Assembly (NCBI RefSeq): GCF_001613545.1
Contig: NZ_BDCO01000002.1
Location: 186,001-250,000, forward strand
Length of the DNA stretch: 64,000 nt
Direction: 5' to 3'
Source of the DNA: Terrimicrobium sacchariphilum
GTDB taxonomy: Bacteria > Verrucomicrobiota > Verrucomicrobiia > Chthoniobacterales > Terrimicrobiaceae
Shown: positions 27,300 through 41,717 of the stretch, piece by piece
How positions within the stretch are numbered: position 1 is the stretch's first letter
How the letters are laid out: the number at the start of each line of letters is the position of its first letter
Program-made: the position numbers and the translations under genes
The notes under the pieces: generated by a model
Told to the model about the DNA's origin: nothing
Seen by the model: the letters and a program-made list of their open reading frames with translations, nothing else
The model's database searches: none

Positions 27300-27466
27300 T
27301 TTGAAGAGGTCGAGCCCGCAGGTATTAGGTTCCTGAAGGCCTAGGTTGAACGCTTAGTGTATGCTGCCGAGGGGAGCAATGACTTTTGAGAAAGGAAGGG
27401 ATCGGCAAAGATGATTCCTTGCAGACTGGCGGTAAGGAGGACTGAAATGAGAAATCCCCCCAAGCG

Positions 27467-27691
27467 ATGAATGGCAATGTTACCCAGCGAGATATAGCGA
27501 AAAAGGCGGGAGTTTCCCATGTGACTGTATCGCTGGCGCTGCAGGGACATCCCTGGAGTGTGGACCCCGTCACCACCGTTGTCTCTGATACCGCGGAGTG
27601 GAGGGCTGACAGGGAGAGGATATTCTTTGCCTCGGCGGGAGCTCCTTCGATGGCGCCCGGAACCTCTCCGGGTGCCACGAGCGTCCGATAA
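27467..27691 (+). pseudogene. LacI regulator remnant (HTH only)
   Basis: The first 30 residues, MNGNVTQRDIAKKAGVSHVTVSLALQGHP, are a textbook LacI helix-turn-helix with hinge-side sequence. The frame then passes into unrelated sequence (WSVDPVTTVVSDTAEWRADRE onwards) and stops after 74 codons. The hinge helix and whole sensor domain are missing, and I see no continuation in other frames before the kinase gene at 27771. This looks like the 5' end of a LacI gene left by a deletion. The surrounding 27300-27770 holds no other gene. Confidence 0.65.
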
Positions 27692-27770
27692 CCTGGCAGT
27701 CGGCAGGCGAAGGGAGGCGAGATACTCTTCTATTGCCTTGGCCTTTGTTCCTTCCTAAACATCCTTCTCC

Positions 27771-28985
27771 GTGGAGGGCGCGGCGCGGAGCAACGAGGGA
27801 GGCTATCGGGAGACATATGGTCCCTCGGTCGATCTTGCATGGACACAAGCCGTCCAGAATTCTCAAGGCTCTGATACGCATCGCTGGAGGGGCCTGGAAA
27901 AGCTGCCGCTCTTCTGGCGGCTGCAACTTTGCGGCTGGCTGGGGTGGGCGGTGTGTTCGTCTCCGATCAATTTCACGATCTACACCGACATCAGCACGGC
28001 CTTTCTCATCACGTGTGTGAGGGAGCTTACAGGTTTTTTTCTCACGCTGGGACTGCGGGAAATCTATCGCCGCACCCCCATTGGAAGGCTCGAGGTCTGG
28101 GCTGCGGCTCCGCTCATCGTCCTGATCTGTGTGATGACGGCAGCGCTGGACGTCGCCTCGCTCGCGGTATTGCAGAAGAGCCTGCATCTGTCTGAGGAGG
28201 ACTTCAGCAATTCCCATATGCTGGGGCTGATCTTTTGCCTTCGCGCGTTGTTGTTTGTTTCCTGGAGCGGTTTGTATCTTTCCTTTCGCGGCCTATTGCA
28301 GACACGGGAGCAGTCGGCGCTGCTCTTTCGCGCGGAGAAGCTGCGGCACGAGGCGGAACTACAGATGCTGCGCTCTCAAACGAACCCGCATTTTCTCTTT
28401 AATGCCTTCAACACGATCCTGAGCGAGGGGAAGGGAAATCCCCGGGTGATCGAGCTGGTGAAATCTCTTTCGGACTATCTGCGGTATTCTCTCTCCTGTC
28501 GTCACGAGGGCTTTGTTTCGCTCGGGGCGGAGATTGATGCCATTGCGAGTTACCTCGAGGTCGAAAAAGCGCGATTCGGCGGCGACCTCATTCTCGAGAT
28601 GAACGTCACGGAGACGGCGCGATCTGCCGGGGTGCCCGGAGTGATCATCCAGCCGCTCATCGAGAATGCCATCAAGTACGGGCGCGAAACCTGCAATCCC
28701 CCGCTCAAGGTGCGCATCGCGGCCGAGACGGGGCCGCATGCACTCCGCATCGAGGTGAGCAACACCGGCCGCTGGCTGCCCCTGCGCAAGCCGCGTAAAA
28801 ATCAGCCGTCTGGCTCCGGGTTGCAGAACCTCCGTCGCCGCCTTGAGGCAATTTATCCCGGGACGCATCGGTTTGAAATCGGAGAGCGGCATGGCGAGGT
28901 GGTTGCCCTGGTCGAGATTCAGATGAATCACGATTACGACAAACGATTGCAGGATTACGAACTGCGCCAGAGGATGGAGCCATGA
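27771..28985 (+). CDS. LytS-type sensor histidine kinase (His_kinase family)
   Basis: A 404-residue membrane kinase beginning with GTG. Four to five hydrophobic segments occupy about residues 45-185. The phosphoacceptor region LRSQTNPHFLFNAFNTILSEG places the His near residue 206, typical of the LytS/YehU class rather than classical HisKA kinases. The ATPase domain has an N box LIENAIKYGRE (about 300) and a G box GSGLQNLRRRLEAIYPG (about 350). It overlaps the response regulator gene by 4 nt. The start is uncertain; the first 40 residues are weakly conserved-looking. Confidence 0.88.
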   Translation: MEGAARSNEGGYRETYGPSVDLAWTQAVQNSQGSDTHRWRGLEKLPLFWRLQLCGWLGWAVCSSPINFTIYTDISTAFLITCVRELTGFFLTLGLREIYRRTPIGRLEVWAAAPLIVLICVMTAALDVASLAVLQKSLHLSEEDFSNSHMLGLIFCLRALLFVSWSGLYLSFRGLLQTREQSALLFRAEKLRHEAELQMLRSQTNPHFLFNAFNTILSEGKGNPRVIELVKSLSDYLRYSLSCRHEGFVSLGAEIDAIASYLEVEKARFGGDLILEMNVTETARSAGVPGVIIQPLIENAIKYGRETCNPPLKVRIAAETGPHALRIEVSNTGRWLPLRKPRKNQPSGSGLQNLRRRLEAIYPGTHRFEIGERHGEVVALVEIQMNHDYDKRLQDYELRQRMEP

Positions 28986-29713
28986 TTTCTTGGCGAGCGC
29001 TGATCATTGATGACGAGACGCCGGCGCGGAATCATCTGCGCGAGCTGCTCCAGGCTCACTCGCAGGTGGAGATCCTGGGGGAGGCGAGTTGCGTGAGCGA
29101 GGCGGCGAAGCTTTGTGCGGAGCTGAGTCCGTCGCTGCTCTTTCTCGATCTGCAAATGCCGCGGGGACTCGGCTTTGACTTGCTGCCGCTGATCAATCCC
29201 GTGCCGGAGATTATCTTTGTGACAGCGTATAACGAGTATGCCGTGCGGGCGTTTGAAGTGGGCGCCGTGGATTACCTCTTGAAGCCGATCTTTGCCGATC
29301 GCCTGGAGATCGCGCTGGCTCGTCTCGGGCACCACCTGCCGAAGCCTGCGGAGAAAACCGTATCGGCTCTCGATGAGGATTCGCCGATCTTCCTGCGTAC
29401 CAGCAGCGGGCTGCGGGCAGTGCTGGTCCATCACGTGACCCATGTGATGGCCGATGGAAACTACACCACGCTCTGGCTGGAAAATGGCACCTCGATTCTC
29501 GCCGATCGCACCATGCATGAGTGGGAGAGCATCCTCCCGGCCGCCCGTTTCATCAGGCTCGACAGATCTCTGATGGTCAATACGAGCCATCTGAAGGAAT
29601 TGACTGTTATCTCGCGCGATCTTGCGCATTTATCGCTCACCGGGTGTGCCGAACCGATCAAAATCGGACGCGCTGCCCGGAGCAGATTGCGACAGTTGCA
29701 GCTTTTTCGCTGA
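28982..29713 (+). CDS. LytTR family response regulator
   Basis: A 243-residue regulator with an N-terminal receiver domain (ALIIDDETPARNHLRELL; phosphoacceptor Asp in LLFLDLQMPRGLGFD near residue 56; Lys in VDYLLKPIF near 101) and a C-terminal LytTR DNA-binding domain (about 135-240: IFLRTSSGLRAVLVHHVTHVMADGNYTTLWL; FIRLDRSLMVNTSHLKEL). LytTR proteins bind tandem direct repeats about 21-22 bp apart, and such a repeat lies 22-64 nt past this gene. It is followed by the outer membrane protein and urea uptake genes, which I propose it controls. Confidence 0.93.
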   Translation: MISWRALIIDDETPARNHLRELLQAHSQVEILGEASCVSEAAKLCAELSPSLLFLDLQMPRGLGFDLLPLINPVPEIIFVTAYNEYAVRAFEVGAVDYLLKPIFADRLEIALARLGHHLPKPAEKTVSALDEDSPIFLRTSSGLRAVLVHHVTHVMADGNYTTLWLENGTSILADRTMHEWESILPAARFIRLDRSLMVNTSHLKELTVISRDLAHLSLTGCAEPIKIGRAARSRLRQLQLFR

Positions 29714-29735
29714 GTAGATTTTCACCGCGCAGGCG

Positions 29736-29777
29736 GCATTTCCCGATTCGCGGACAGCATTGCCCGATTCACGGAAA
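29736..29777 (+). promoter_or_regulatory. 21-bp tandem direct repeat, candidate LytTR operator
   Basis: Two adjacent 21-bp units, 29736-29756 and 29757-29777, are identical at 18 of 21 positions (shared core CCCGATTCrCGGA). A further TTCGCGGA follows at 29779-29786, 11 bp after the second unit's TTCACGGA. The 21-bp period equals two helical turns, as expected for LytTR dimers. It lies in the spacer between the LytTR gene and the outer membrane protein gene. Confidence 0.6.
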
Positions 29778-29887
29778 CTTCGCGGAAAACGCGCTTGGGT
29801 GGCCCGCCCGCTGCTTTTTGGCATGCCAGCTTCCGAACGAAAGTCCGGTCGCTTCTCAACAACCAAAAAACAAAGGGAAACGAAACA

Positions 29888-30721
29888 ATGCTAAAGATGA
29901 AATCATTGCGTGCACTGGCGGCCTTGACCGTCGGCACCATGACTGTCGGCTCTGCCTTCGCCGGAACCACCACGGCGCCGGCGCAGAAGGAAGTGGCGGT
30001 GGTTGAAGAAGAAAAGCCTGCTTTCACCGGCTGGCTGTCCTTTGACCTGAACAGCCACTTTATTTCCTACGGATCGGACGTATGGGGCGGCGGCACCAGC
30101 TGGGGCCGAGGTGTATTCAACCCATCGGGCGAGATCAGCTGGGCCTCGCCGATCAAGGGCCTGAGTGTCGTAGCCGGTACCTGGTGGGACGTTAACAATA
30201 ACGCGCCATCCACCATCGGCGGTTACCTTCAGGAGGTCGATGTATGGGCGGGCCTGTCGTATGGGTACAAGGACTTCTCCGTCACCGTGCTCTACCAGGC
30301 ATGGAATTACGGCGGTGAGACCGAGCAGATCCTCGATGTCGCGTTGAAATACGCCAACAACAACTTCCTCAACCCGTCCATCGTGTTCCACAATCGTGTG
30401 GATCCCGGCGCGGCTGAAGGCGGTGGCGGACACAACGGAACATTCTTTGTTCCTAACATTAGCTACAACTTCAAGATCTGGAAGTTCACCATCACGCCTT
30501 CCGCGGCCCTCGGCCTTTGTACGGAAGACTACCACGGCGGTGGCGGAGGCTACGCCTACACGGCGCTCGGCCTCAATGGCAGCGTTCCGATTCCTTACCT
30601 CCCGGGGGATTGGGAACTCCATGGCGGTATTACCTACTACAACACGAATGATGTTGTGATCCCGAACAACGTTGCGAACAACTTCGTGACCGGCAACATC
30701 GGTATCAAGTTGTCCTTCTAG
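29888..30721 (+). CDS. Outer membrane beta-barrel (porin-like) protein ahead of urea operon
   Basis: A 277-residue protein with signal peptide ([26 protein letters not shown]) and a mature part of alternating amphipathic strands rich in Tyr, Trp, Gly and Asn. It starts with [23 protein letters not shown] and ends [13 protein letters not shown], a terminal Phe typical of outer membrane barrels. It resembles TorF/porin-like proteins without a named family. AAGGGAAA lies about 11 nt before the ATG. Placed between a LytTR regulator and urtA, it may be the outer-membrane route for urea or amides; this is inferred from context. Confidence 0.75.
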
Positions 30722-30731
30722 ATCCACTTTA

Positions 30732-30813
30732 GGCAGCAGAACCCGGGCTGGTCGCCAGGGTAGCGAACAAAACGGCATCGTTCGTGCTTCCACGCCCGGG
30801 TTCCTGCACTGCC
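30732..30813 (+). other. Long inverted repeat in urtA leader region
   Basis: GGCAG-ca-GAACCCGGGC (30732-30748) can pair with GCCCGGGTTC-ctgca-CTGCC (30794-30813), enclosing a 45-nt GC-rich segment that itself contains AACAAAACGGCATCGTT complementarity. It fills most of the 130 nt between the porin-like gene and urtA. It may be a terminator-like or processing structure that sets relative expression, or a structured 5' leader. I could not match it to a known riboswitch. Confidence 0.45.
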
Positions 30814-30851
30814 CACGAGAAAATCCACTCACCATCAAAGAAATACTCACT

Positions 30852-32123
30852 ATGAAACTCTCGCAAACACTTCAGGCCATGGCGGTCGGTGCGTCCCTTC
30901 TCGTCGGGACAATGGCGCCGGTTCGTGCGGCCGAGGACACGGTCAAAGTCGGCGTCCTGCATTCTCTCAGCGGTACCATGGCGATCAGCGAAACTTCGCT
31001 GCGCGACGTACTCCTTTTTGCCTTCGATGAAATCAATGCCAAAGGCGGCGTGCTCGGCAAGAAGATCGAGCCGGTCGTGGTCGATGGCGCCTCGAACTGG
31101 CCGCTCTTTGCGGAAAAGGCCAAACAGCTCCTGGAAGTCGACAAGGTCGCGGTGGTCTTCGGCTGCTGGACCTCGGTGAGCCGCAAGTCGGTGCTCCCGG
31201 TGTTCGAGAAGAACAACGGCCTGCTGTTCTACCCCGTACAGTACGAGGGTGAGGAACTCTCAAAGAACATCTTCTACACCGCGGAGGCGGTGAACCAGCA
31301 GGCGATCCCGGCGGTGGACTATCTCCTCGCTGATGGGCGCAAGAAATTCTACCTCATCGGCACGGACTACGTATATCCGCAGACCACGAATCTCGTGCTG
31401 CTGGAGTACCTCCTGTCCAAAGGGGTGCCGATCGAGAACATCGGCGGCGGCCTGCGCAAGGACGAGGCTGGCAAGGTGATCTCCGCGGGCAAGTACACGC
31501 CCTTTGGCCACACCGACTACCAGCAGATCGTGGCTGAGATCAAACAGTTCGCTGCCACGGGGGATGCCTGCGTGATCAACACGATCAATGGGGACTCGAA
31601 TGTGCCGTTCTTCAAGGAATTCGCTGCCTCCGGCCTCACGGCCGCTGACTGCCCGGTCGTTTCCATGAGCCTTTCGGAAGACGAACTTCGCAGCCTGCCC
31701 ACGAAGGATCTCGTCGGCCATCTTGGCTGCTGGGCGTACTTCATGTCGATTGACTCCAAGGAAAACGCAGCCTTCAAGAAGAACTTTTTTGACTGGCTCA
31801 AGACCGCCAAGGTGCAGGGTATCGAGCGCACGAATCGCGTGACCTGCAGCCCGATGGTGCTTTCCTACGACGGCGTCTATCTCTGGAAGGCTGCGGTCGA
31901 GAAGGCCGGCTCCTTTGATGTGGACAAGGTCCGCGAGGTTCTCGAGTCAGGCAAGATCACCTTCGACGGTCCGAATGGACTCAACACGGTGGAGAAAAAT
32001 CACCACACGAAGAAGAATACCTACATCGGTGAAACCAAGGCCGACGGGCAGTTCAAGATCGTGGAGGAATTCAAACAGGTCTACCCCGAGCCGTTCCTCA
32101 AGGGAACGTTCGTGAAGGAGTAG
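30852..32123 (+). CDS. urtA: Urea ABC transporter substrate-binding protein
   Basis: The 423-residue periplasmic binding protein has a signal peptide (to about residue 26, VRAAE) and then [24 protein letters not shown], the standard UrtA opening. [38 protein letters not shown] and [17 protein letters not shown] are also characteristic of urea-binding UrtA rather than branched-chain amino acid binders. It delivers urea to UrtBC. A strong hairpin between urtA and urtB probably lets urtA be made in excess. Confidence 0.96.
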
Positions 32124-32147
32124 TCTCACATATTCGGTAGCTAGAAT

Positions 32148-32186
32148 CGGGGAGGAGTTTGGGAGAGGATACCCGAACTCCTCCCG
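32148..32186 (+). promoter_or_regulatory. Intercistronic hairpin between urtA and urtB
   Basis: CGGGGAGGAGTTTGGG (32148-32163) pairs with CCCGAACTCCTCCCG (32172-32186) around an 8-nt loop, with one bulge and one G-U pair. No T tract follows, so it is more likely an attenuating or 3'-end-stabilising structure, as often found after binding-protein genes, than a full terminator. Confidence 0.6.
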
Positions 32187-32226
32187 CTGGCCGAGCACTG
32201 ATCTTGCTTACAACCAACGAACTTTC

Positions 32227-33948
32227 ATGATGCGACCATACGTCCAGCGTTCACTTTGTCTTGTCGCCGCAATGGCGATGACATTTGCCTCTCTCGTCCA
32301 GGCGGACGAGTCGGAGAGCTCGGCCCGCCAGAGCGCCGCCCGCGCCATCCTCGCCTCCGAGAGCGAGCAGGCGATGATCGTACAGGACATGGCTGCAAAC
32401 CCTTCGCCCATCCTGGGGCCGATTTTCGAGGCCTGGCAGCGCAGTCAGGTCTACATCTACGAGGCTCCGGACGGAGCGCGGATTCCCTTTATGCTTATGC
32501 CGGACGGCTCTGGCTCCAAGGCTGTGCGGATCGACAACGGAGAGCCTCTCGTCGGGCCCAATGGAGCGCCCGTCGTGGTGGACGAGGCGACCATGAAGCC
32601 GGTGGAGACCTTTGCCAAACTGCGTCGCGCCATGCGTTCCACCATGGATCTCCTGGCATTGGCTGATCCGGCGCCCGCCACCCGCCAGAGCGCCATCCTC
32701 AAGCTGGGCATGAAACAGTCGCCCGAGGCGCTTCCCATTCTCAACGCCCGCCTGGCGCGGGAACAGGACAAGGCGGTCAAAAACGGGATCCTCGACGCCA
32801 TCGCCATCATCAATCTCGCGTCGCCCGATCCGAAAATGCAAATCGACGCCTTGAACCAGTTGAAAAAGTCGAACTCCGTGCCGAGCAGGGAGCTGGTCGC
32901 CAAAATGGCTGCGGATGAAAAGCTCTCTCCCAAGGTAAGGGCGGCTGCCGCGTCTACGCTGAAGGCAATCGACAACCATCTCTTCTGGGTCGATTTCTTC
33001 GGCACCATGTTTCGCGGAGTGAGTCTCGGATCGGTTCTACTCGTCGTCGCGCTGGGGCTGGCTATTACCTTCGGCCTCATGGGTGTGATCAACATGGCTC
33101 ATGGCGAGATCATGGTGGTGGGCGGCTATGCGACCTATCTCGTGCAGTGTATCTTCGGAACGGGAGTCGCTCTCGCACCTTTTGGGATTAGCGTGAACAT
33201 CCCGGGATTCGGCTTCGATTCAAACTCGGGCATCTATCAAAGCTACTTCCTCTTTGCTTTGCCCGTCGCTTTCTTCAGCGCGGCGGCGGTGGGTGTTTTG
33301 CTGGAGCGCGGAGTCATTCAGTTTCTCTATCGTCGTCCGCTGGAGTCCCTGCTCGCCACGTGGGGCGTATCGCTGGTCATGCAGCAGCTCTTTCGCCTGA
33401 TCTTTGGACCAGCCAATGCACCGGTATACTCCCCCGCATGGCTGCTGGGCAGCTTCTCCGTGGGGGATGTGATCATGAACTACAATCGTGTGTTTGTGAT
33501 CATCTTTGCGGTGGCCATCGTGGTGGGCACCTCGCTCCTCCTGGCCAAGACGCCCGTAGGCCTGCTCATCCGCGCGGTGATGCAGGATCGCACGACGGCG
33601 GCTTGCATGGGCGTACGGACCCGCAAGGTCAACACACTCACGTTTGCCTTCGGTTCCGGGCTGGCCGGGCTGGCAGGAGCCTTTCTCTCGCAGATCGGCA
33701 ACATCGGCCCGAGCACGGGTCAGACGTACATTGTCGATTCCTTCATGGTTGTCGTCGTCGGTGGAGTAGGCAATCTCATCGGCACCGTCATCTCTGCACT
33801 CGGCATCGGAACGCTTGACCAGATACTCCAAACCGGCCTGCGAAATCCTGTCATCGGAAAGGTGCTCGTGCTGGTCGGCATCATCCTCTTCCTCCAGTGG
33901 AAGCCTTCAGGCCTTTTCGCCACCAAGGGACGCGGGCTGGAAAACTAA
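32227..33948 (+). CDS. urtB: Urea ABC transporter permease UrtB
   Basis: A 573-residue permease. The C-terminal 300 residues carry the LivH/UrtB membrane domain ([61 protein letters not shown]). The N-terminal part has a signal-like helix and about 230 extracytoplasmic residues with HEAT-like helical repeats ([38 protein letters not shown]). This extension occurs in many UrtB proteins. Starts with ATGATG at 32227. It pairs with UrtC to form the urea channel. Confidence 0.94.
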
Positions 33949-33952
33949 CGTC

Positions 33953-35107
33953 ATGAAACAGGAAGTTTCCAAAAAAGAGGTTCTCATCGGAGCGATCGTC
34001 GCGGTGTTTCTTATCGCGGTCATCCCGGGTCTGAACGCATTCACTCCGGCGGGGAGTTCACTCCATGTGAGCGATTTCAATATCAACCTGTGGGGACAAT
34101 ATCTCTGCCTGGCCATTGTGGCGGTGAGCATCGACCTGCTCTGGGGATACACGGGATTGCTGAGCCTCGGGCAGATGCTCTTCTTTTCGCTTGGCGGCTA
34201 TGCGCTCGGCATGCACCTCATGCTGATGATCGGCAAGCTCGGTCAATACAAGAGCGACCTGCCGGACTTCATGGTCTTCCTCGGGTATACGAAGCTGCCC
34301 GCGCACTGGGAGCCGTTTGCGCATTTTGGATTTGCCGCCTTCGCGGTACTCTGGGTGCCAGGGGTGGTGGCTTTCATCTTTGGGTATCTCGCATTCCGCT
34401 CCCGCATCCGGGGTGTTTATTTCTCGATCCTCACACAGGCGCTCACCTATGCAGCGTGTCTCCTCTTCTTCCGCAACGAGCTGACGCTGGGCGGCAACAA
34501 TGGGTTTACCGATTTCAAAACCCTGCTCGGCTTTGACCTGGGCACTCCTGGCACACAGCGTGGACTCTACATCGCCTCGGCGGTCGCACTGGTGCTGGTG
34601 TATGTCCTGTGCCGGTGGTTGACCCTGACGAAGTTTGGCAAGGTCCAGCGGGCGATCCGAGACAGTGAAAATCGGGTGCTTTTCTCCGGCTACGCGGCGG
34701 CGAATTTCAAGCTCTTCGTCTTCGTTCTCGCAGGTATGATCGCGGGTCTGGCGGGTGCACTGTACGTGCCTCAGGTCGGCATCATCAATCCCAGCCAGAT
34801 GGAACCCGCCAAATCGCTGGAGGCCATCGTATGGGTGGCGGTGGGCGGACGGGCTTCCCTTATCGGGCCGATCATTGGAGCCATCGGCGTGAATGGCCTG
34901 AAAAGCTGGGCCAGCCAGGCATTCCCTGCGTATTGGCCGATCTTTCTTGGGGCGATGTTTGTGGTGGTCGTGCTCTTCATGCCGCGAGGCGTTGTTGGTT
35001 TGCCCGCGCAGATCCAGGAGGCTTGGCGAAGACATAAGCGAGCCAGGGAGGCTGCCGCAGAAGCTGCTGCTGCCGCAACTCAAGTGCCAAAGGATTCCCA
35101 GTCATGA
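33953..35107 (+). CDS. urtC: Urea ABC transporter permease UrtC
   Basis: A 384-residue LivM-type permease with about nine membrane helices. Segments such as [46 protein letters not shown] and [27 protein letters not shown] are characteristic of UrtC. Its C-terminus is an Ala/Glu-rich tail. The ATG at 33953, 4 nt after the urtB stop, fits the conserved N-terminus. The stop overlaps urtD by 4 nt. Confidence 0.95.
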
Positions 35108-35856
35108 GCAAGCAGTTCCTACTCGCCGCGGAAGGCGTCACAAAGAGCTTCGATGGGTTCAAGGCCATCAACGACCTGAACTTCTACCTCGATAAGGGGG
35201 AGTTGCGGACGATCATCGGTCCGAACGGTGCGGGCAAAAGCACGTTCCTCGACCTGATCACAGGCCGCACCCGCCCGGATACCGGCACGATCGAGTACAA
35301 AGGGACACCGCTGACGAAGCTAAGGGAATACGAAATTTACCGGCTCGGCATCGGACGGAAGTTCCAGACGCCGAGTGTGTATAGCGACCATACGGTATTC
35401 GAGAACATCCTCCTCGGTCTCGAGGGAAGCCGAAGCGTGTGGCCATCCATTTTCAGCCGGGTCAAGCCGGAGCAGCGGGAGCGCATTCACGAGGTGCTGA
35501 AGACGATCGGCCTTGCCGACAAGGCCGAGCTGAAAGCAGGCACACTGGCGCACGGGCAGAAGCAGTGGCTGGAAATCGGCATGCTGCTCGCGCAAAATGC
35601 CGAGCTGCTCCTCGTCGATGAACCCGCGGCGGGCATGACGGACGAGGAGACCGCCAAGACTGGCGAGTTGCTCCTCAGCCTGGCGGGGAAACACACGATC
35701 ATTGTCATCGAGCACGACATGGTTTTTGTCCGACAGCTCGGCAGCAAGGTTACCGTGCTCCATCAGGGCCACGTCCTTTGCGATGGCTCCCTCGATCAGG
35801 TGCAGGCCGACGAGCGCGTCATCGAAGTTTATCTCGGCCGCAAAAAGAAACACTAG
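35104..35856 (+). CDS. urtD: Urea ABC transporter ATP-binding protein UrtD
   Basis: A 250-residue LivG-type ATPase of normal length. Walker [13 protein letters not shown] (about 40-51), the Q-loop region [11 protein letters not shown], signature [17 protein letters not shown], Walker [16 protein letters not shown] and switch His in [13 protein letters not shown] are all intact. With UrtE it powers urea import. The start overlaps the urtC stop. Confidence 0.96.
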
Positions 35857-35858
35857 GT

Positions 35859-36818
35859 ATGCTCTCGATCAAAAATCTCTGCGTCTCTCTCGACGGGTCC
35901 CGCATCCTGCGCGATGTCAGCATCGATGTGCCGGAGAATCAGGTGTTTTGCCTCATGGGGCGCAATGGCGTAGGCAAGACGACCACGCTGAAAAGCATCG
36001 TAGGCATTCACCGCCCGACCAGCGGCTGCATCATTTTCAAGGGAAAGGATATTTCCCAGATGCCAGCCGAGGACCGGGCGCGGGCGGGTATTGGCTACGT
36101 CCCGCAGGGGCGCGGTATCTTCCCGCACCTCACGGTGGAGGAAAATCTCTTTATCGGCGCGATCGCCCAGGGCAAGAAGCCCGGTCGCTCACTGGAACGC
36201 ATCTACTCGCTCTTCCCGATCCTGAAGGACTTCCTTTCACGCAAGGGGGGCATGCTCTCGGGAGGCCAGCAGCAGCAACTCTCCATCGCGCGGGCGCTGC
36301 TCACAGAACCGGATTTGTTGATCCTCGACGAGCCGACGGAGGGCATTCAGCCCAACATCATCGATCAGATCGGCGACGCCTTGAAGCTCCTGCGCCGTGG
36401 CGGCCATCACAATGAGCCCGGCCTTATGGCCGAGGCAGTCCAGCTTCTCAAGAAGTTGCGCGATGAATCCGACTATCCGGAACCGGCGCTGATCGAGAAA
36501 CTGAGTGACGACATCAATGAAATGCGGCGTGTGGGCGCAGAGCGAAACGCGGCCGCCTTTACCGAGCTCTCCAGGACGTTCGAGGCCATTCGCCAAAAGG
36601 GCCCGCACGAGGGCAATCTCTTGGGCGAGGAGATCGCCAATGCCCTCGACCAACTCCACAGTGAGAAGTCGATGACGATCCTGCTCGTGGAGCAATATCT
36701 CGATTTTTGTAAAGAACTCGCCGACAACTTCGCCATCCTCGACCGGGGAAGCGTGGTGGCACGCGGGTCGGTGAATGAGCTCACTGATGAAGTTGTCAGG
36801 GAGCATCTCACCGTATGA
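35859..36818 (+). CDS. urtE: Urea ABC transporter ATP-binding protein UrtE with large internal insertion
   Basis: The ATPase has Walker A GRNGVGKTTTLK (about 34-45), signature LSGGQQQQLSIARALL (about 133-148), Walker B LLILDEPTEGIQP (about 153-165) and the UrtE-type VEQYLDF switch segment. UrtE is usually about 230 residues; this one is 319. The extra 90 residues (about 181-270) sit between the helix after Walker B (GDALKLLRR) and SMTILLVEQ. The insertion is charged, helical and begins GGHHNEPGLMAEAVQ. The reading frame is continuous and core motifs are intact, so a functional protein is likely. Confidence 0.92.
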   Translation: MLSIKNLCVSLDGSRILRDVSIDVPENQVFCLMGRNGVGKTTTLKSIVGIHRPTSGCIIFKGKDISQMPAEDRARAGIGYVPQGRGIFPHLTVEENLFIGAIAQGKKPGRSLERIYSLFPILKDFLSRKGGMLSGGQQQQLSIARALLTEPDLLILDEPTEGIQPNIIDQIGDALKLLRRGGHHNEPGLMAEAVQLLKKLRDESDYPEPALIEKLSDDINEMRRVGAERNAAAFTELSRTFEAIRQKGPHEGNLLGEEIANALDQLHSEKSMTILLVEQYLDFCKELADNFAILDRGSVVARGSVNELTDEVVREHLTV

Positions 36819-36827
36819 TGATGTCGT

Positions 36828-37130
36828 ATGCACCTGAGTCCTCGTGAGACGGAAAAACTCATGATCGTGGTCGCTGCCGATCTGGCCCGTCGGCGGCAAA
36901 AGCGTGGGTTGAAGCTGAACTATCCCGAGGCCATCGCCATCCTGACGTACGAGATCCTCGAGGGAGCTCGCGACGGGAGATCGGTGGCCGAGCTGATGAG
37001 CTTTGGCACGACCATCCTCAAGCGCGAGGACGTGATGGAGGGCGTGCCGGAGATGATTGCCGAGGTGCAGGCTGAGGCCACGTTCCCGGATGGCACGAAA
37101 CTTGTTACAGTTCACAATCCCATCCGATGA
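36828..37130 (+). CDS. ureA: Urease subunit gamma
   Basis: A 100-residue UreA with typical [37 protein letters not shown] and the C-terminal [18 protein letters not shown]-type ending (here [19 protein letters not shown]). It forms the small structural subunit of the nickel urease that hydrolyses urea to ammonia and carbamate. It starts 9 nt after urtE and overlaps ureB by 4 nt. Confidence 0.97.
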
Positions 37131-37431
37131 TCCCCGGCGAAATCATTCTTTCTCAAGACGGTCACCATGAGGCCAATCAGGGTCTTGAATGGAAAACGAT
37201 CGTTGTCACCCACCGGGGCGACCGGCCCGTACAGGTGGGCAGCCATTTTCATTTTTACGAGGTCAACAGCCTGCTCGACTTTGATCGCGAGGCAGCGCGA
37301 GGGTTTCGGTTGCGCATTCCCTCCGGCACGGCCGTGCGTTTTGAACCGGGCGACACGCGTGAGGTGGAACTCGTGGCTCTCGCCGGGAAACGTGAAGTTT
37401 ATGGCCTCAATGGAAAGGTGAATGGACCGCT

Positions 37432-37435
<4 letters not shown>
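37127..37435 (+). CDS. ureB: Urease subunit beta
   Basis: The 102-residue subunit shows [47 protein letters not shown], then [38 protein letters not shown], both diagnostic for UreB. It is flanked by 4-nt overlaps with ureA and ureC. Length and motifs are normal. Confidence 0.97.
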
Positions 37436-39165
<1,730 letters not shown>

Positions 39166-39167
39166 GT

Positions 39168-39614
39168 ATGGAAATTGTCCGTCATCATCTGCATGTCCAC
39201 CGGTCGGAATCGGATCGCATCATTCCCATCCCGGTGGATCGCGAAGTCCTCGCCAAACGCCGCTGGCGCGCCATCGCGGGCGACGGTCGGGAGTTTGGTT
39301 TCGACCTTGATCATTTGCTTTCCCATGGCGATTTCGTGCTGCGAGAGGAGGGCATTCTCTATGCGATTCGCCAGCGGGAGGAGCCCGTTTTCGAAATTCC
39401 TCTCGGCTATGTCCCGGCGGACGCGGCGCGTGTGGCGTGGCAACTGGGGAACCTCCATTTTCCGATCCAGATCGTGGACGAGGTGATACGGGTTGCGGCG
39501 GATGTCGCCGTAAAACAAATGCTCGATCGCGAACAGATTCCGTACTTTGAGTCGCTGGCCGTCTTCTGTCCGGTGGCCGCCGGGGCGGCGCATCATCACC
39601 ATCATCATGATTGA
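39168..39614 (+). CDS. ureE: Urease accessory protein UreE with natural His tail
   Basis: A 148-residue nickel-binding metallochaperone. The N-terminal peptide-binding domain and the C-terminal metal-binding domain (ARVAWQLGNLHFPIQIVDEVIRV, with the conserved GNLH metal His) are recognisable. It ends in [12 protein letters not shown], six consecutive His that resemble the His-rich tails of enterobacterial UreE and probably store or deliver Ni. The gene overlaps ureF by 8 nt; the ureF ATG lies out of frame within the His-tail codons. Confidence 0.93.
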   Translation: MEIVRHHLHVHRSESDRIIPIPVDREVLAKRRWRAIAGDGREFGFDLDHLLSHGDFVLREEGILYAIRQREEPVFEIPLGYVPADAARVAWQLGNLHFPIQIVDEVIRVAADVAVKQMLDREQIPYFESLAVFCPVAAGAAHHHHHHD

Positions 39615-40299
39615 ACTGGAGCAGGCGGGCCTCGCCTTCCTACTTCAGACTTCGGATGCCACCTTTCCGACGGGCTCGTATGCTCACTCGCTCGGCATGG
39701 AGGAGATGGTGCAGCAGGGACGGGTGCATGATGAGGTGACGCTCCGGGGTTTTTTGAGCGACCATGTGATACCCGCAGCCGCGCACATTGACCTGCCGCT
39801 TGTGGCGGAAGCCCATCGTGCTGTGGAGCGCGATGACATCGAAGACCTTCTTGCGGTGGATCATCTATCCGGAGCGCTGCGACCCGCCCGGGAGCTGCGT
39901 GCGGCGAGTCTTCAGACGGGACGGAGACGCCTGGCGATGCTTGCCGCGGTTTCTTCGGTCCCGATCATCCGAGCTTACCAGGACCGGGCGGCGGGCGATG
40001 CGGCGATCGGGCATCATGCATCGGTCTGGGGTGCGGCGTGCAGCGGCCTCCCGGTAAAGGCTGCGCTTACGGCCTATCTTTATCAATCACTCGCGGGCTA
40101 CTGCGCGGCGGCGCCGAAGCTGATCCGTATCGGCCAGGAGGGAATTCAGCGCGTGCTCACGGCGGCGCTCGGCGGAGCGATGCCTGCCGTGGACCAGGCC
40201 CTCTCTGTGGCGCGTGCCGAAATCGGTTGGTTTGACCCGGTGGTCGATATCGCCTCGATGTGGCACGAGATTTCCGACGAACGACTCTTTATCTCATGA
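39607..40299 (+). CDS. ureF: Urease accessory protein UreF
   Basis: A 230-residue all-helical UreF, acting with UreD and UreG in nickel insertion. Recognisable segments are [32 protein letters not shown] and the C-terminal [13 protein letters not shown]. The ATG at 39607 starts inside ureE; its stop overlaps ureG by 4 nt. Confidence 0.93.
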
Positions 40300-40898
40300 A
40301 AACCCTGCGTATCGGTATCGGCGGTCCGGTGGGATCGGGAAAGACCATGCTTGTCCTGCGGCTCTGCGAATGGATGAGGAACGAGTTCAACATGGCGGTG
40401 GTCACCAACGACATCTATACCCGCGAGGATGCGGAGTTCCTGGTGCGCAATCAGGCCCTGGAGGCCGATCGGGTCATGGGAGTCGAGACGGGAGGCTGTC
40501 CGCACACGGCGATTCGCGACGATACCAGTATGAACGACGCGGCGGTGGCGCAGCTTCAGGCCCGCTTTCCCGGTCTCCAGCTCATCCTGATCGAAAGCGG
40601 TGGCGACAACCTCTCGGCGACGTTTTCGCCTGAACTGGTCGATGTGTTCATCTACGTGATCGATGTCGCGCAGGGGGATAAGATTCCGCGCAAGGGCGGT
40701 CCGGCCATTCGCAAAAGCGATTTGTTGTTGATCAACAAGATCACCCTCGCTCCCCATGTCGGCGCTGATCTGAACGTGATGGCCCGTGATGCGAAAATCA
40801 TGCGCGGCGAGCGACCATTTCTCTTCGCCGACCTGAAGTCCGGCGAGGGGCGCGACGATCTGCTGAACTGGCTGCGGCGCGAGTATCTCTTCGTCTAG
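40296..40898 (+). CDS. ureG: Urease accessory GTPase UreG
   Basis: A 200-residue SIMIBI GTPase that drives nickel delivery to urease. It shows P-loop [27 protein letters not shown], the metal-binding CPH motif in [33 protein letters not shown], and the base-recognition NKITL. The Met of [10 protein letters not shown], overlapping the ureF stop, is the natural start. Confidence 0.96.
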
Positions 40899-40904
40899 TT
40901 TCGT

Positions 40905-41717
40905 GTGATCGGGCACCTGGCGATTGAGTTGGCACGAGGACCGAATGGCCTTACGCATATCGGTCGGCAGTCCTTTCATGCGCCCATGCATCTGAGCAAG
41001 CCATATTGGGACGGTCGCCACCTCATCGTGCAGATGGTGAATTGCACGGCGGGGCTACTAGAGGGCGACGTGGTCGACATTTCCGTGGAGGCTCGTGCGG
41101 GATCATCAGCGATATTAACAAGTCCCAGCGCGCAGCGGGCCTTTCGTGTGCGGGAGGAGGATGCGCTCGCCACGGTGAACCAGACGTTCTCTGTCGAGGC
41201 CGGGGCGTGGCTGGAGGTGTGCCCGGAGATTTTCATTCCGCACAAGGGATCGCGGTTAAGGCAGTCGACACGGATCAATGCGGAGACTGATGCCGAAATG
41301 CTCTTTATCGAATCGCTCGCGCCCGGTCGGGTGGGGTCGGCGGAGTCCTATGCATTTGCCCGGCTGGAGTGGGCTGCCGAGGTGTATGTGGATGGCCGTT
41401 TACAGGTACGGGAACGGTATGACCTTTCCCCGGAGCAAAAGAACATCGAAGCGCTTCGCAAAGTATTTCCCGATGCCTACTATGCGTCGTGCTATCTGGT
41501 GACGCCTCGGCTAGGGGCGCTGGCGGATTTGCGGGCGATGATGCGGGACTCCTCCACGCCGGATCTTTTCATGGCCGCCAGCATCGTCGCTCCCAATGTC
41601 GCTGCCCTGCGCTTGCTGGCCTCTGGCAGCATAGCCCTGCGCCAGGGTATCAAGATGGTGAGGGAATATTGCTATTCGGCGCTCGGTCGCCCGCTGCCTG
41701 ACTGGCGCAAACTTTAG
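40905..41717 (+). CDS. ureD: Urease accessory protein UreD
   Basis: The 270-residue scaffold protein starts with GTG ([35 protein letters not shown]). It contains [39 protein letters not shown] and [22 protein letters not shown], which match UreD/UreH. It binds apo-urease and receives Ni via UreEFG. It is last in the operon, whereas ureD is often first. Its end overlaps the convergent yacG gene by 4 nt. Confidence 0.93.

Follow-up and report, generated by a model that had tools for sequence, protein, structure and literature searches.

Which regulator governs the uptake and hydrolysis of urea in Terrimicrobium sacchariphilum, and at what kind of promoter does it act? The question is raised by a stretch of 64,000 bases of this genome (the window), in which genes for a LytS-type histidine kinase (HK) and a LytTR response regulator (RR) lie ahead of a porin-like gene, the urt urea transporter genes and the urease genes, with a tandem 21-bp repeat in between. 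The original prediction took this repeat for a LytTR operator and proposed that the LytS/LytTR system directly controls urea import and hydrolysis, in contrast to the NtrC-, UreR- or NikR-type control more usual for urease operons.

Genes of the urea locus and the tandem repeat

The features of the locus are collected in Table 1. The HK is 93.8 and 96.0% identical to its counterparts in two congeneric genomes, G008 and G009, and 64.9% identical to that of G074, and its start is uncertain, with homology to the G074 protein from residue 42 onward. The fetched locus of a further genome, G011, contained no match to the HK. The RR consists of a receiver and a LytTR DNA-binding domain, both above the Pfam cut-off, and is one of six LytTR genes in its own genome. 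The porin-like protein had no match in Pfam (E to 10) or NCBIfam (E to 0.1), and its structure prediction from three sequences gave a very low mean pLDDT of 26.8. With the starts chosen, the genes from urtB through ureC abut or overlap, and gaps of 130 and 103 bp precede urtA and urtB, respectively; the start of urtE is probably 35859. The gene order suggests that the porin-like, urt and ure genes may form one operon and that this set is the probable target of the RR. No Rfam match was obtained in 27300-32400. UrtE (35859-36818, + strand) looks longer than the TIGR03410 model of 230 positions by about 90 residues; its match to the model is split in two stretches, and the additional segment comes ahead of the final portion of the ATPase. 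An apparently broken regulator precedes the kinase gene, where positions 27467-27616 (+ strand) hold what is left of a DNA-binding head of the LacI type (Pfam LacI, E 4.9e-06, slightly below the cut-off).

Table 1. Genes and putative regulatory features of the urea locus, in window coordinates.
Feature	Position	Strand	Evidence or remark
LytS-type histidine kinase (HK)	27771..28985	+	Pfam His_kinase PF06580, E 1.2e-21
LytTR response regulator (RR)	28982..29713	+	Pfam Response_reg E 2.4e-19, LytTR E 5.4e-11
Operator unit 1 (putative)	29736..29756	+	GCATTTCCCGATTCGCGGACA; 18/21 to unit 2
Operator unit 2 (putative)	29757..29777	+	GCATTGCCCGATTCACGGAAA; its CCCG begins 38 bp ahead of the -24 GG
Third partial copy	29779..29788	+	TTCGCGGAAA, against TTCACGGAAA at 29768-29777; present, unconserved, excluded from the site
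Probable sigma-54 -24/-12 promoter	29800..29815	+	TGGCCCGCCCGCTGCT; score 14.1; 3/300 shuffles as good
Porin-like secreted protein, first gene of target set	29888..30721	+	Homologue before urtA in 14/30 fetched loci
urtA, urea-binding protein	30852..32123	+	Pfam Peripla_BP_5, E 4.8e-132
urtB and urtC, permeases	32227..35107	+	Pfam BPD_transp_2 in each
urtD and urtE, ATPases	35104..36818	+	Pfam ABC_tran; UrtE TIGR03410 307.3 bits, cut-off 285.8
ureA, ureB, ureC	36828..39165	+	Pfam Urease_gamma, Urease_beta, Urease_alpha
Open frames with ureE, ureF, ureG, ureD (approximate starts)	38763..41717	+	Pfam UreE_C, UreF, cobW/UreG, UreD

The two adjacent units lie between the stop codon of the LytTR gene (29711-29713) and the ATG of the porin-like gene. 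They form the sole adjacent 21-mer pair with at least 17 matches in the window, neighbouring offsets at the same place aside, and when the intergenic region of 174 bp was Markov-shuffled 2000 times, no shuffle reached an identity of 18 of 21, either at this period or at any period from 15 to 39. The two-unit core occurs once in the genome of 4,751,807 bases with up to 3 mismatches. Alignment and shuffles thus confirm the tandem units that had been predicted. The third partial copy that was also predicted is present in the sequence and finds no support in conservation. Compared with the window, both congeners retain 41 of the 42 positions of the repeat and 15 of the 16 positions of the -24/-12 block, as against 18/22 (G008) and 12/22 (G009) for the intervening 29778-29799. 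Because the third copy sits in this variable stretch it has been left out of the site and, judged by the alignment, is not part of it. In the congeners, the -24/-12 block and all the sequence after it, as far as the start codon, are conserved, and the block is not distinct within this stretch.

Conservation of the regulator and its putative site among relatives

Homologues of UrtA (E 1e-60) were present at 44 places in 40 of the 210 genomes of the order. Upstream DNA was examined at 31 of these places (the window, two congeners and 28 further), the 13 weaker ones (at most 50% identity) being left out; at 8 of the 31 it was shorter than 2 kb. Five genomes from two families (G000, G008, G009, G074 and G011) combine a LytTR regulator, the repeat, a porin-like gene and urtA, G074 belonging to another family of the same order. 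The kinase is kept in four of them, G011 being the exception. The five regulators group as a single clade with 100/98 support in a tree of 26 LytTR regulators; within it, the exact position of the G011 protein is unsure on account of a very long branch.

Conservation of the repeat upstream of porin-urtA in relatives had been named as a check on the operator, and it was borne out by exact 21-bp spacing in all five regulator-linked genomes, each of which also retains the unit core CCYGATTCGCG. The consensus pair CCCGATTCGCGG is matched at 23, 23, 23, 23 and 18 of 24 positions in the five. The scan with this pair covered the 20 of 29 loci that had a hand-picked promoter block, and the best score at urt promoters without the regulator was at most 14/24 in 14 of 15 and 16/24 in G068. 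The G068 look-alike stands at a different distance than in the regulator-linked genomes, and since no LytTR regulator was found in that genome at E 1e-15, its score is taken as about the level expected from chance or from a relic.

A search of 213 genomes of the order for the two-unit core returned six with a match, namely the window genome, its two congeners, G028, G055 and G153. With a shorter core, 52 of 387 genomes of the phylum had a match, many of them of the simple-repeat type or chance-like. One such match, in G072, lies between genes read from their translations as a cellulose-binding-type protein and a transporter, and was judged to be chance. Orthologues of the RR at E 1e-58 were obtained from 6 of 207 genomes of the order, comprising four urt-linked ones together with G073 and G101, neither of which has a repeat of at least 10/12 downstream of the regulator. 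At E 1e-62, 7 of 384 genomes of the class had orthologues; the new ones, in G635 and G651, have no urt link and weak 10/12 repeats only. Both cuts fail to catch G011.

At E 1e-15 the G011 regulator (L158:4785-5492, - strand) is the sole match that this genome has to the RR of the window. The receiver of the G011 protein scores 23.4 bits, under the Pfam cut-off of 30.2, and its LytTR domain 47.9; the phospho-acceptor Asp is replaced by Asn (FLDLQM to FLNPHA). This orphan regulator still stands beside porin-urtA with a recognisable site. In a direct-repeat test made without the consensus the site did not reach significance, with 86 of 300 shuffles scoring equally well, so it is recognised only through its resemblance to the sites of the other genomes. 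Because the LytTR domain and the site are present despite a decayed receiver and a missing kinase, DNA binding at the urt promoter seems to have been kept in G011 after loss of the phospho-signal.

LytTR paralogues with their own repeats

The family has another 28 LytTR regulators, counted after removal of duplicates; by raw count, five of them have a repeat of at least 12/14 at a spacing of 20-22 bp within 600 bp downstream, and four of these repeats are within about 60 bp of the regulator stop. One of the five, a paralogue in the same genome as the window, is followed by the 21-bp repeat GCCCGATTCGTTAAATATTCG / GGCCGGTTCGTTAAAC, with a CCCGATTCG core 14 bp past its stop. Downstream lies a gene for a protein that has autotransporter-type repeats and gives a borderline match to PEP-CTERM; regulator, repeat and this gene together take up L233:1842-4734 (+ strand; C2, about 332.8-335.7 kb). 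No sigma-54-like element was seen after the repeat. A further LytTR paralogue of this genome (L006, C2, about 971 kb) has a different 21-bp repeat, CGAAGTCGGAAGTGGGAACGC / GGAAGTCGGAAGTG, some 10-45 bases past its stop. Given these paralogues with repeats of their own, the order of regulator gene and then 21-bp repeat is a recurring layout, of which the urea locus is one instance. Taken on the sequence evidence, the tandem repeat is very likely the operator of the adjacent LytTR regulator. The operator part of the predicted direct control is well supported by conservation, an orthologous clade and the paralogue repeat, and the urea genes are the putative target by gene order.

A probable promoter element of the sigma-54 type

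Sigma-54 elements were scored in 280 bp around the porin start of 15 porin-urt promoters with a weight table of our own, on which all the sigma-54 scores given here rest. Twelve of the 15 promoters reached at least 13.2, including 9 of the 10 without the regulator (G052, 9.6), and some matches are perfect or near-perfect, such as TGGCACGGCCGTTGCT in G040. Scored against TGGCACG-N4-TTGCW, the regulator-carrying genomes gave 14.1, 14.1, 14.1, 6.8 (G011) and 2.6 (G074), and the best-scoring site of G074 lies elsewhere than at the register position. A GG-N10-GC motif is found in matching register in all five, the distance from unit 2 to the -24 GG being 38, 38, 38, 38 and 37 bp. The surrounding DNA has diverged in G074 and G011, where just the two dinucleotides, GG and GC, are truly kept; a GG-N10-GC at 37-39 bp arose by chance in 113 (G074) and 36 (G011) of 5000 shuffles.

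The genome encodes one rpoN and five strong enhancer-binding proteins, all outside the window. Enhancer sites of the NifA or NtrC type (TGT-N10-ACA, TGC-N11-GCA) were absent from the 300 bp upstream in the window, and single matches were scattered elsewhere. Genome-wide, the perfect sigma-54 consensus shows no enrichment, with 3 matches compared to 5 for the reversed control. Two of these three strict matches fall in a near-identical stretch ending TGGCACCCGCCTTGCT (L236 and L237, about base 1500) with unrelated DNA after it, which looks like the end of a repeated element rather than two promoters. On balance, the porin-urt promoter of the window is probably of the sigma-54 type.

Alternative explanations

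The strongest competitor is ordinary LytTR activation at a sigma-70-type promoter in a lineage that has switched from sigma-54, the -24/-12-like element being a relic or a coincidence. The range of scores in the regulator-carrying genomes, weaker than the 13.2 or more of nearly all the regulator-less promoters, agrees with such a switch, as does the working position of characterised LytTR activators just upstream of -35 according to the available part of PMC6193735. A consensus scan of 29640-30900, however, found no sigma-70 hexamer pair of at least 9/12, and the GG and GC register has been preserved in five genomes despite the divergence around it in G074 and G011, so that this explanation appears rather unlikely. 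The block at 29796-29815 could also be the transcription terminator of the regulator gene instead of a promoter element, given a terminator-like hairpin with a T-run at 29796-29810, which overlaps the -24/-12 block. When the five genomes were folded, G009 proved to have an altered 5' arm and a different predicted hairpin; moreover, regulator-less relatives have a sigma-54-consensus sequence at the corresponding place, and a terminator in place of a promoter is improbable.

The repeat itself might serve some other protein, or it might be a tandem duplication, of chance or structural origin, with no relation to the regulator. The conserved stretch of about 14 bp per unit exceeds the 9-10 bp LytTR half-sites in the available text of PMC4847170 and PMC6193735, and the G068 look-alike precedes a urt promoter in a genome where the search found no LytTR regulator. 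Against this, repeat and regulator co-occur in five genomes, regulator-less urt promoters with the one exception score low for the consensus pair, and a 21-bp repeat with a similar core lies next to the gene of a LytTR paralogue, all of which makes such an origin very improbable. The combined reading, a LytTR operator and a sigma-54 promoter with the LytTR protein as co-regulator, is the one that we moderately favour.

Comparison with known systems

LytTR proteins have been described as dimers on direct repeats with a usual spacing of 12 bp, commonly placed some 10 bp ahead of -35 (PMC6193735), and AgrA has been reported to bind near -60 and to bend DNA (PMC4227749). As far as the available parts of these two sources and of PMC4847170 go, the geometry of the repeat is consistent with the LytTR literature. 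The layout with an operator about 10 bp upstream of a -35 box is not seen here, and it is not claimed because 29640-30900 has no sigma-70 pair. YpdA/YpdB and BtsS/BtsR of Escherichia coli likewise consist of a LytS-type kinase and a LytTR regulator that recognises a direct repeat and so controls a transporter. The motif repeated in the YpdB site is GGCATTTCAT (PMC4847170, available part), compared to GGCATTTCCC and AGCATTGCCC, 21 bp apart, in the window. Unlike BtsR, the RR scores 140.3 bits on NCBIfam NF008677 (cut-off 246), and unlike both systems its putative target is urea uptake and hydrolysis, at a sigma-54-like promoter. AgrA at agr P2/P3 of Staphylococcus aureus offers another likeness, a LytTR dimer on direct repeats, with a promoter-proximal pair centred near -60 (PMC4227749, available part) compared to near -70 here; the AgrA promoters have -35/-10 boxes, unlike this one, where none were found.

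LytTR operators adjoining their own regulator genes are already known, and joint control of algC by AlgR and RpoN is a precedent for a LytTR-family regulator and sigma-54 acting on one gene. In Pseudomonas syringae, algC expression has been shown to fall when either algR or rpoN is deleted, and the available part of this report describes genetic co-dependence without a LytTR repeat in fixed register to a -24/-12 element (PMC4064291). The promoter considered here shares the GG-N10-GC spacing of sigma-54 (RpoN) promoters; its own match to the consensus is imperfect, and strong matches are present in 9 of 10 regulator-less porin-urt promoters. It differs from typical sigma-54 promoters in that an enhancer site is unrecognised within 300 bp and that the putative LytTR operator takes the place where an IHF site is often located. 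In the accessible portion of the open-licence literature, Verrucomicrobia included, no report turned up of a sigma-54 promoter with a LytTR site in register, nor of urea genes controlled by a LytTR protein.

Proposed mechanism and significance

According to the proposed mechanism, an RR dimer would occupy the two half-sites on one face of the DNA, with two helical turns between them and their centre some 70 bp ahead of the transcription start for the porin-like, urt and ure genes. Sigma-54 promoters require an AAA+ activator, and the LytTR protein alone could not open a promoter of this type; it would therefore be a phosphorylation-gated co-regulator, acting by DNA bending, contact co-activation or block, and an AAA+ enhancer-binding protein encoded elsewhere would act beneath the LytTR input. 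Binding, sigma-54 use, DNA bending and the direction of the effect are all inferred. The original contrast with NtrC-type control was not upheld, since the repeat stands in fixed register to a -24/-12 element, most regulator-less relatives have strong sigma-54 matches and the sigma-70 search was empty. Given the sigma-54-like element here and the strong matches at the same place in relatives lacking the regulator, the LytTR protein probably adds to NtrC-type control instead of replacing it. A more specific and tentative suggestion is that the LytTR dimer, 37-38 bp from the -24 element, might serve as an architectural co-regulator that bends the DNA between the AAA+ activator and the polymerase, IHF-like and under control of the kinase, and so adds a second signal to nitrogen control, with the G011 regulator keeping the binding role alone.

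Descriptions of LytTR proteins mainly concern sigma-70 activators that bind direct repeats ahead of the -35 box. If the reading proposed here is true, the class would be shown to modulate a mechanistically different, ATPase-dependent polymerase, and the locus would provide a concrete two-signal wiring of urea uptake in Verrucomicrobiota, one that is open to experiment in a cultured type strain.
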